From an uncultured Anaeroplasma sp. (GTDB lineage Bacteria > Bacillota_I > Bacilli_A > Acholeplasmatales > Anaeroplasmataceae), in NCBI GenBank assembly GCA_934216145.1, contig CAKQBG010000044.1, forward strand, positions 1 to 15,471: 15,471 nucleotides of DNA, in the 5' to 3' direction. Shown in pieces: positions 1,102-15,336 of the stretch (position 1 is the stretch's first letter; each line of letters starts with the position of its first letter). A program made the translations under genes and the position numbers. The notes below the pieces were generated by a model. The model ran no database searches, was not told the DNA's origin, and saw only the letters and a program-made list of their open reading frames with translations.

Positions 1102-2013
1102 TTATTTTTCCTTATAGATTTTATTATAGATAGTTCCTAATAAAATAACAGTAATAATTATAATTGATAAAACATAAATATATGAAAACATATTATTAAC
1201 AATATTATTAAATAAATTACAATTAAAGCCAAAGGCAACTTTAATAGATTCTAATAAAATATGATTATCCATTCCCATTAAGGAACTATCCATATTATTA
1301 ACTACGCCAGTTAATAATGTATTTCTAAATAATGCTGCAATATGAGAAGCAGGAAATAAATTACAAATAGTTTGAACTATAGGACTAAACTCACTTAAGG
1401 GAATATACGCTCCAATTATAAATCCTGATGCGGCACTCAATAAGCCTAGAAAAGCGCCAGCTTGACTACTAGTTTTAAAAAATATCATAATAAGCATCAT
1501 AAAAGAACAAGCTGAAATAGTGCCAAGTAATAAAATACCTATTAATTTTAAATAATCAGAAAATACTAAATATGTTTTTGAAATAGAATTACAAATAATT
1601 AAAGTTACTATCATCATTATAATTACTATTATAAATGTTACTAAAATAGATGCTAATAAATATGCAATTATTATTTTAAATCTAGATAAAGGAGATACCT
1701 TTATATCATATGATATCTTATCCTCTTTATCTTTAACAATTGTAGATAAAGAAGAATAGCTTACTGTCATTAATGATGAACCTAATACAGATGCTAGTAA
1801 AATTAAATTACTAAATGTTGAAATATCATTTCTATCAATATAATTAATTCCATCTCCTATAGAATTCTCTAATGAACTAACAAATGTGCCTCTCAAAAAT
1901 AAAACATATAATACAAAAACAATAATAGGAGAAAGAATTGAAAAGAAAACAGCTTGATAATCCTTTATATAAACCAATATATTTCTTTTTACTAAACCTA
2001 TAAAACCTTTCAT
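1102..2013 (-). CDS. ABC-2 type exporter permease
   Basis: Membrane subunit of an ABC exporter, of the DrrB/NatB-like ABC-2 type. The 303-residue protein starts with a short cytosolic segment, then a hydrophobic helix at about 20-42, a large extracytoplasmic loop, and five further hydrophobic stretches. These include SNLILLASVLGSSLMTVSYS, the helix pairs around 115-140 and 155-185, the small-residue-rich FLGLLSAASGFIIGAYIPL, and a C-terminal anchor near 280-298. The amphipathic stretch DKEDKISYDIKVSPLSRFK after the second helix is typical of the coupling region in this family. Its start overlaps the ATPase stop by four bases (ATGA), so the two are translationally coupled and should form one transporter. 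The substrate cannot be read from sequence; family members export drugs, peptides or sodium. Confidence 0.88.
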   Translation of the reverse strand: MKGFIGLVKRNILVYIKDYQAVFFSILSPIIVFVLYVLFLRGTFVSSLENSIGDGINYIDRNDISTFSNLILLASVLGSSLMTVSYSSLSTIVKDKEDKISYDIKVSPLSRFKIIIAYLLASILVTFIIVIIMMIVTLIICNSISKTYLVFSDYLKLIGILLLGTISACSFMMLIMIFFKTSSQAGAFLGLLSAASGFIIGAYIPLSEFSPIVQTICNLFPASHIAALFRNTLLTGVVNNMDSSLMGMDNHILLESIKVAFGFNCNLFNNIVNNMFSYIYVLSIIIITVILLGTIYNKIYKEK

Positions 2014-14248: not shown

Positions 14249-14623
14249 ATGTCTTTATTAGAATCAGGAGAAAATTATTTAGAAACTATTTTAATGCTAT
14301 TAAAAACTCAAAGTGATGTTCACGCAATTGATATAGCTACACATTTAGGCTTTTCTAAACCGTCTGTATCAATAGCTTTAAAGAAATTATCAAATGATGA
14401 ATATATCACAATTGATAATTCAAGTCACATCCATTTAACTGAGAAAGGTGAAAAAATAGCTACAAAAATCTATGAAAGACATGTTTTATTAACAAATGCC
14501 TTTAAGGCATTAGGAGTTGATCCTGCTATAGCTGAGGAGGATGCCTGTAAGATAGAGCATGATTTATCAGATGAAACGTTTAATGCTATAAAAAAGCATT
14601 ATAATAAATTAAGTAATGAATAA
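14249..14623 (+). CDS. DtxR/MntR-family metal-dependent repressor
   Basis: Cytosolic repressor of metal uptake genes, 124 residues from the chosen start. The winged helix (about 8-65) has the recognition helix KPSVSIALKKL, and the dimer domain follows at 70-124; the SH3-like third domain of DtxR is absent, as in MntR. Metal positions by alignment are N9, E12, H78, C100, E103 and H104. The stretch DACKIEHDLS carries the Cys-x2-Glu-His of iron-type DtxR, not the Glu-x2-Glu-His of MntR, so iron is at least as likely as manganese. A GTG nine bases upstream overlaps the GAGGTG ribosome site, so the ATG at 14249 is the start. It is the only well-supported protein gene on the plus strand; no target gene is next to it. 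Confidence 0.85.
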   Translation: MSLLESGENYLETILMLLKTQSDVHAIDIATHLGFSKPSVSIALKKLSNDEYITIDNSSHIHLTEKGEKIATKIYERHVLLTNAFKALGVDPAIAEEDACKIEHDLSDETFNAIKKHYNKLSNE

Positions 14624-14631
14624 ATAATTTT

Positions 14632-14661
14632 GTACCATAATTTATTTTATGGTACTTTTTT
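14632..14661 (+). terminator. Terminator of the DtxR-family gene
   Basis: Perfect 9-bp stem GTACCATAA / TTATGGTAC, six-base loop, followed by six T, eight bases after the stop codon. Confidence 0.92.
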
Positions 14662-14680: not shown

Positions 14681-15217
14681 ATCGAGTAGAGTAGAAAAAA
14701 ACATTTCTAATTACTAAATCCCCTCTCATACCACCGTACGTTCCGTTCAGAATACAATGGTTCAATTCATAAGTTTGCTTCAAGTTAAATAATAGTCAAG
14801 AGCGAATATCAAATTTCTTAATTTCCTCTTTTTATTTGGTGTTGCAAGTCTAATTTTTGATATTGCATTTTGTAGTATTTTGGAAATGTGCTACAAACAT
14901 ATAGCCTCTTCTACAATTTGTCAAGTCTCTTGCTTCATCATAAGTGCTTAACGTCTTACCATTATTTATTTTAATTAATATTTTTTTATTTAATCTTATG
15001 TAAATTGGTATTAAACAGTCTTTCGGAGTTTGTTATGCTATGTTAACTTATCCACCTAATGGGCTTTAGACTTAAATTCCTACTCGTTGAGCCAAGGTTT
15101 CGCTATTGCTTCTTTTCATGCTCCATTACTGATTAATGCTTTGCAAGTTGATATCAAGTTCAAGACAACTACGCCTCTTGGGACTTTCACTTTAGATATA
15201 TGACATTCCTGTCATAC
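14681..15217 (-). mobile_element. Group IIC intron, deleted, 537 nt
   Basis: Retroelement relic on the minus strand. It begins GTATGACAGG at 15217, keeps domain I features (GTGAAAGTCCC, GAAGCAATAGCGAAACCTT, GGATAAGTTAACATAGCATAA) and ends with domain V (GAACC...GAACGGAACG...GGTGGT, 14730-14762), GAGAGG, a domain VI stem and the 3' end CTACTCGAT at 14681-14689. Domain V aligns base for base in length with the Oceanobacillus iheyensis IIC intron as I remember it, where the catalytic triad CGC reads CAT here. Of the reverse transcriptase, only a broken C-terminal end remains in domain IV. The 5' end abuts the T-run of the tRNA terminator, the known target preference of IIC introns. It is unlikely to move by itself, and splicing is doubtful. 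Confidence 0.85.
14780..14945 (-). pseudogene. C-terminal remnant of the intron reverse transcriptase
   Basis: In domain IV one frame gives TYDEARDLTNCRRGYM, which resembles the YWRI region (ARxLxNxRKGYW) near the C-terminus of group II intron-encoded proteins. After a one-base shift the next frame continues as ISKILQNAISKIRLATP and then LRNLIFALDYYLT before TGA at 14780-14782, like the usual final residues of such maturases. The palm, finger and thumb domains are missing. The deletion joint is probably in the AT-only stretch at about 14955-15000. Confidence 0.65.
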
Positions 15218-15248
15218 AAAAAAAAAGACTGATCTAATAATCAGTCTT
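15218..15248 (-). terminator. Terminator of the tRNA cluster, intron target
   Basis: Perfect 9-bp stem AAGACTGAT / ATCAGTCTT with a six-base loop, followed by a T-run that continues to the intron's first base (nine A on the plus strand, 15218-15226). It ends the Asn-Glu tRNA transcript. Confidence 0.93.
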
Positions 15249-15260
15249 AAGTCATCAAAC

Positions 15261-15336
15261 TGGTGACCCGTACGGGGTTCGAACCCATAAATGCATGCGT
15301 GAAAGGCATGTGTGTTAACCGTTTCACCAACGGGCC
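15261..15336 (-). tRNA. tRNA-Glu (anticodon TTC)
   Basis: Acceptor GGCCCGT pairs ACGGGTC, with discriminator A and encoded CCA. Anticodon stem CATGC/GCATG around CTTTCAC gives TTC, reading GAA and GAG. Its body is close to the tRNA-Glu(CTC) at 6465-6540, differing mainly in the anticodon arm and acceptor. Confidence 0.95.

Follow-up and report, generated by a model that had tools for sequence, protein, structure and literature searches.

A probable group IIC intron relic behind a tRNA-Glu terminator in an uncultured Anaeroplasma, and its ORF-less relatives

Introduction

In a 15,471-nt stretch of DNA from an uncultured Anaeroplasma sp. (hereafter the window), a short element with the ends of a group II intron lies between a tRNA-Glu gene and a convergent repressor gene. 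The question that this locus raises is whether the element is a miniature intron that still functions or what is left of a larger one. We approached it by comparing the element with related introns in genomes of the family Anaeroplasmataceae and of its order, and with the corresponding locus in a sister genome.

Results

A group IIC intron copy behind a tRNA terminator

Read along the minus strand, the locus runs from tRNA-Glu through its terminator hairpin and the element into a short stretch rich in A and T, beyond which the convergent repressor gene ends (Table 1). The closest relatives of this repressor gene were found in Anaeroplasmataceae and Mollicutes draft genomes. The terminator has a stem-loop of 10 pairs (15248-15225) and a T-run (15224-15218) that the element adjoins, with the first G of the intron at 15217, as expected from the original prediction of an insertion directly behind a tRNA terminator. 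When relatives' genomes were searched with the element DNA, family copies repeatedly began at query base 1 and stopped at query base 537, and for this reason we take 15217 and 14681 to be the true ends of the element. The relatives' copies start with GTATG at base 1, as the window copy does, whereas another IIC subfamily in the relatives' genomes starts with GTGTG; they end with CTACTCTACTCGAT at base 537, the exceptions being L152 and L153, whose 3' end is CTAT.

Table 1 Features of the intron locus in the window
Feature	Position	Strand	Basis or detail
DtxR-type iron-dependent repressor gene, convergent neighbour	14249..14623	+	Pfam PF01325 and PF02742
Terminator-like hairpin of the convergent DtxR-type gene, just past the intron 3' end	14632..14655	+	Hairpin scan
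Group IIC intron copy with internal deletion (entire element, 537 nt)	14681..15217	-	Both ends match relatives exactly
Domain VI region and intron 3' end (...CTACTCTACTCGAT)	14681..14729	-	Same 3' end in relatives
Domain V	14730..14761	-	Triad C14759-A14758-U14757; bulge C14740-G14739
RT C-terminus remnant, two frames, frameshift near 14885	14783..14936	-	tblastn with L124 RT C terminus
Zone holding the deletion junction	14937..15016	-	Domain I similarity fades after element base 200
5' part of domain I, first ~206 nt	15012..15217	-	77-85% identity to relatives
Rho-independent terminator of tRNA-Glu, insertion target and 5' exon	15218..15248	-	Hairpin and T-run scan
tRNA-Glu (anticodon ttc), upstream gene of the 5' exon	15261..15336	-	ARAGORN; RF00005, 59.6 bits

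At the gathering threshold, Rfam gave no group II match anywhere in the window, so the identity of the window copy rests on its relatives. Below threshold, RF00029 (21.2 bits against a cut-off of 40, E 0.095) and RF02001 (19.3 bits at 15135-14977 against a cut-off of 32, E 0.14) both fell in the correct place and order and on the correct strand. The element DNA matched 18 of 55 Anaeroplasmataceae genomes (best E 2.5e-53); matches anchored on an element end occurred in 15 of the 55, and G009, G025 and G050, with matches of only 34-39 bases, were not counted as carriers. The nearest copies were only 75-83% identical to the element. In a first search, of five relatives' genomes, no match was longer than about 45 bases and the best E was 0.003, most of the similarity being due to chance in AT-rich sequence; one match from that search, at a contig edge in G004, proved on reading to be a true intron 3' end.

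Five of the ten relative stretches searched with RF02001 scored 94.9-116 bits (L136, L134, L126, L127 and L123), the broken copy L139 scored 43.5 bits and the remaining four do not contain the part that this model covers; RF01998 scored 39-49.9 bits in L127, L123, L126, L134, L136 and L155. The RT of the relatives is a group II RT/maturase (TIGR04416, 409 bits; Pfam RVT_1 and GIIM), and its nearest solved structures are the PDB 7uim series, followed by 5hhj/5hhl and the GsI-IIC RT 6ar1. No complete RT-bearing copy was seen on a single contig among the relatives, and we infer the complete RT-bearing form from L126 and L127 (5' end and RT) and L124 (RT C terminus and 3' end). In a search of 160 genomes of the order (E <= 1e-5, three candidates scored per genome), 18 genomes matched and no intact copy of the window's own subfamily was found; the matching genomes outside the family were G072, whose domain V is canonical, and G158, where the match spans 35 bases. 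The element is homologous from end to end to intact IIC copies with common 5' and 3' ends, and on the strength of this homology we judge 15217-14681 (minus strand) to be a copy of a group IIC intron, which agrees with the 537-nt extent, the two ends and the class that had been predicted. Like group IIC introns with a class C RT, it stands directly behind a rho-independent terminator, has a 3' end AU and a domain V hairpin with a 2-nt bulge, and carries the family's residues in its RT C terminus.

Group IIC introns habitually insert behind intrinsic terminators, according to PMC4424553 and PMC8919778. We scored 27 distinct 5' junctions, taken from stretches L121-L169, L184 and L185 and the window and distinguished by upstream flanks of at least 40 bases before the 5' motif, using hairpin thresholds of our own choice. 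At the loosest threshold, a terminator-like hairpin with a T-run was present at all 27 junctions and at 9.5% of 3000 random control positions; 26 of the 27 passed each of the next two thresholds (controls, 2.9% and 1.5%) and 24 passed the strictest (control, 1.0%). In genomes G014 and G017, a common 5' intron fragment lies behind a common terminator flank in L139 (2250 onwards) and L135 (267-1, minus strand), apparently as a relic inherited in both.

The window copy lacks much of the intron core

Compared with its relatives, the window copy is without the 3' half of domain I and the 3' strand of the domain I helices, without domains II-III and without most of the RT. Alignments with L123 and L127 cover its first 200 bases, and the alignment with L124 covers the RT C terminus, domain V and the 3' end, similarity to the relatives' RT beginning at about element base 274-281. 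A 19-base domain III motif of the relatives was not found in the window with up to three mismatches allowed. The exact deletion joint, which we sought by alignment to the relatives, could not be placed; because the zone is AT-rich and the joint unplaceable, the RT codons left number about 50 with certainty, these being the last ones, and 90 at most. In tblastn searches, 13 of 17 amino acids matched at 14936-14886 (frame -2) and 26 of 33 at 14884-14786 (frame -3; E(2) 1e-15), and the RT pieces of the window matched no family in Pfam or NCBIfam. The window copy has, in place of a class C RT/maturase or an intact ORF-less ribozyme, only a frameshifted C-terminal remnant, and its domains I to VI are incomplete. 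The near-total loss of the RT that had been predicted is borne out, and the loss goes further than was claimed, taking half of domain I and domains II-III as well. These gaps, together with the CAT triad described below, set the window copy apart from group IIC introns. Elsewhere in the family, in L155 (3267-2944, minus strand), the RT gene seems to have been lost by a deletion whose borders are a pair of short, similar sequences (AAAAGAAAGGA), one close to each RT gene end; the 3' half of this ribozyme is intact and the 5' half is hidden by the contig edge.

The retained part has also changed. In a consensus structure of this part, the window copy keeps 22 of 30 pairs, breaks seven and lacks one side of one, whereas six relatives break 0-1 pairs in leave-one-out; the structure was built from the same six relatives with which the window is compared, and leave-one-out was applied to the relatives. 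At 127 otherwise invariant columns the window copy has 14 private changes, compared with 0-4 in 10 of 11 other copies and eight in L129, seven of which are gaps at its contig end. As measures of decay both figures are partly doubtful because the nearest copies are no more than 75-83% identical and because the window domain V is canonical and not of their U-bulge type (see below), and part of the change may be the normal divergence of an unsampled subfamily.

Truncated or inactivated bacterial group II copies are described in PMC4424553 and PMC4496777 as fragmented, diverged and outside coding genes, as the window copy is. The fragments of PMC4496777 lose the 3' terminus, whereas the window copy has an internal deletion and keeps both ends.

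Domain V is paired and has an altered triad

No part of group II introns is more conserved than domain V, to which the U6 active site corresponds. In the window copy domain V, ACCATTGTATTCT-GAAC-GGAACGTACGGTGGT, forms a hairpin of 13 pairs that includes a CG bulge of 2 nt, a fold only modestly better than that of shuffled sequences (15 of 200 shuffles fold as well). It is of the widespread canonical kind, unlike the U-bulge kind of its nearest relatives. In G072, from the same order, domain V is GAACCGCCGTATACCGAACGGTACGTACGGTGGT (L182 and L183) and passed RF00029 at 45.2 and 42.0 bits.

The triad reads CAT in the window copy and CGC in all 45 related copies, namely 25, some of them near-identical to each other, from 24 viral contigs that had been retrieved with a pattern placing no constraint on the triad side, and 20 of the Anaeroplasmataceae type, several of which are identical and come from one genome. 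On this comparison we consider CAT a departure from CGC, as the original prediction had it. A functional group II triad is AGC or CGC according to PMC4424553, and the window copy has neither. The usual G-U of the triad is A-U in this copy and the stem is still paired, as had been observed from the sequence. The three adjacent transitions in or beside the triad are, on the intron strand, G-to-A, C-to-T and C-to-T. Because a C-G pair hit by C-to-T always becomes U-G and a G-U pair hit by G-to-A always becomes A-U, both of them standard pairs, the pairing follows automatically and is no sign of selection; the earlier observation stands, but not as a mark of constraint.

A 2019-base contig from the viral collection (L228) has two domain V copies, at 43-69 and 1939-1965 (minus strand), 1896 bases apart, and in it an intron 3' end is followed immediately by GTGTGCCGTGCATG, which resembles a 5' intron start. 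This arrangement could be a tandem copy, a circle or an assembly artefact.

ORF-less relatives and a bulged U in domain V

Complete ORF-less group IIC copies were found in three related genomes, G006, G014 and G046: L134 2443-3060 (618 nt), L136 2323-2943 (621 nt) and L141 1-614 (614 nt), none with 60 consecutive codons free of stops in any of the three forward frames. L134 and L136 keep domains I-III (RF02001, 113.6-116 bits; RF01998, 43.2 bits), and the core of all three copies looks intact. In G006, four sites of the L134 type do not differ at all over their first 206 bases, nor do four over their last 140; L134 is the complete one, the others stopping at contig edges. We did not find a cognate RT in these draft genomes: the RTs nearest to the family RT are 36-57% identical in G006 and 53% identical in G014, with none at E <= 1e-15 in G046, and those in L210 (G006) and L207 (G014) belong to the IIC subfamily with GTGTG starts. 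This absence means little, because the RT is likewise missing from drafts in which RT-type 3' ends do occur (G012, G018 and G044 among them), and the cognate RT may simply be missing, as drafts lose multi-copy contigs. The existence of complete ORF-less copies, one type of them at four or more sites in G006, makes mobilization in trans plausible in this intron family.

Compared with the canonical form, domain V of this subfamily has one base more, a U that bulges out of the 3' strand, with three pairs below the catalytic bulge. All 20 readable U-type copies (L124 767-853 and others in L121-L169) keep this U. In the one copy scored with RF00029, that of L124, the U was aligned as an insertion and the score was 26.7 bits against the cut-off of 40. 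Of 395 genomes sampled from the class, four carried a 31-base pattern for the U-bulge domain V (up to three mismatches), and a 28-base pattern had no exact match in the viral contigs. Among the papers listed by a limited literature search there was no mention of an extra bulge or an unusual domain V, which is no proof of novelty. We tentatively propose, with a confidence that stops a little short of even, that Anaeroplasmataceae may harbour a IIC subfamily that works with a non-canonical U-bulge domain V and has ORF-less members multiplying in trans.

Whether the window element, too, could be a shrunken non-autonomous intron, still spliced and mobilized with the help of a maturase whose gene lies at another site of the genome, as the original prediction offered, has to be judged against these copies. 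Their existence at 614-621 nt in three related genomes, with one type at no fewer than four sites in G006, favours the idea, as do the two ends and the domain V fold that the window copy retains. However, the ORF-less relatives keep domains I-III and the window copy does not; it has seven of 30 pairs broken and the triad G replaced by A, and with domains II and III and half of domain I absent, along with the 3' strand of the domain I helices, no maturase supplied in trans could rescue it. We therefore regard its survival through such a maturase as very improbable. The ORF-less bacterial group II introns described in PMC4424553 are, like the window copy, short and without a complete RT, but ORF-less introns keep domains I-III, and L134, L136 and L141 are of this true type. 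Rescue by a maturase encoded elsewhere is a misfit for the window copy and could fit its ORF-less relatives. From its sequence, then, we do not consider the window element an intact miniature intron.

A sister locus without the element

G027 is a sister genome, with an SNF2-type protein 88% identical to that of the window, and it is collinear with the window over 8304 aligned bases at 79% identity, the tRNA region aligning over 193 bases at 95%. The intron is absent behind its tRNA-Glu, where a terminator-like hairpin of other sequence was read by eye. The comparison shows presence versus absence, which is explained more simply by a gain in the lineage of the window, although a loss in the G027 lineage is possible. 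No orthologous intron copy was found in a second species. Between the repressor gene and tRNA-Glu, where the window has only the relic, G027 carries an extra gene (L181, about 16160-17200), which by eye is serine acetyltransferase-like.

With the tRNA terminator on one side and that of the convergent DtxR-type gene on the other, the element is placed where it might have been retained as a spacer, as an insulator or as an RNA element separating the two converging transcripts. Yet each neighbour gene has a terminator-like hairpin of its own and G027 does without the element; we found no evidence for the role that had been suggested and give it hardly any credence. An assembly chimera, in which multi-copy introns break contigs and the ends of different copies are wrongly joined, is just as implausible: the intron stands at a contig edge in most of the fetched relatives, which shows how assemblies fail, but both halves of the window copy differ similarly from all sampled copies (75-83% identity) and both flanks agree with the locus in G027.

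Discussion

The missing segments, the broken pairs and the frameshifted RT remnant favour the dead-relic alternative of the original prediction, and we conclude that the window element is very probably a dead, internally deleted group IIC intron relic that is drifting. That domain V still folds is a counterpoint to this reading. A dead relic is the usual fate of bacterial group II introns. In the order of events that we infer, a group IIC intron would have inserted behind the tRNA-Glu terminator, the usual target of its class; an internal deletion, later or during a failed insertion, would have taken out most of the RT gene together with domains II-III and the 3' half of domain I; and point changes would then have piled up, among them the three adjacent transitions in or beside the triad and the frameshift in the RT remnant. 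The copy would by now neither splice nor move by itself and would be drifting.

As a relic the element is ordinary, and it adds one more way for a group II intron to die, by internal deletion with both ends kept. It is a warning, too, that an element is not a miniature intron just because it has both intron ends and a domain V able to fold. A lead worth more than the relic comes from its U-bulge, ORF-less relatives. If the proposal made for them is true, such introns would fall below the domain V model used for ORF-less introns and would be overlooked; PMC4424553 notes that ORF-less bacterial introns could be missed in exactly such a domain V case. If the U-bulge copies splice, the tolerance of the active-site hairpin to change would become directly testable, and this would suggest that ORF-less introns in bacteria are undercounted.
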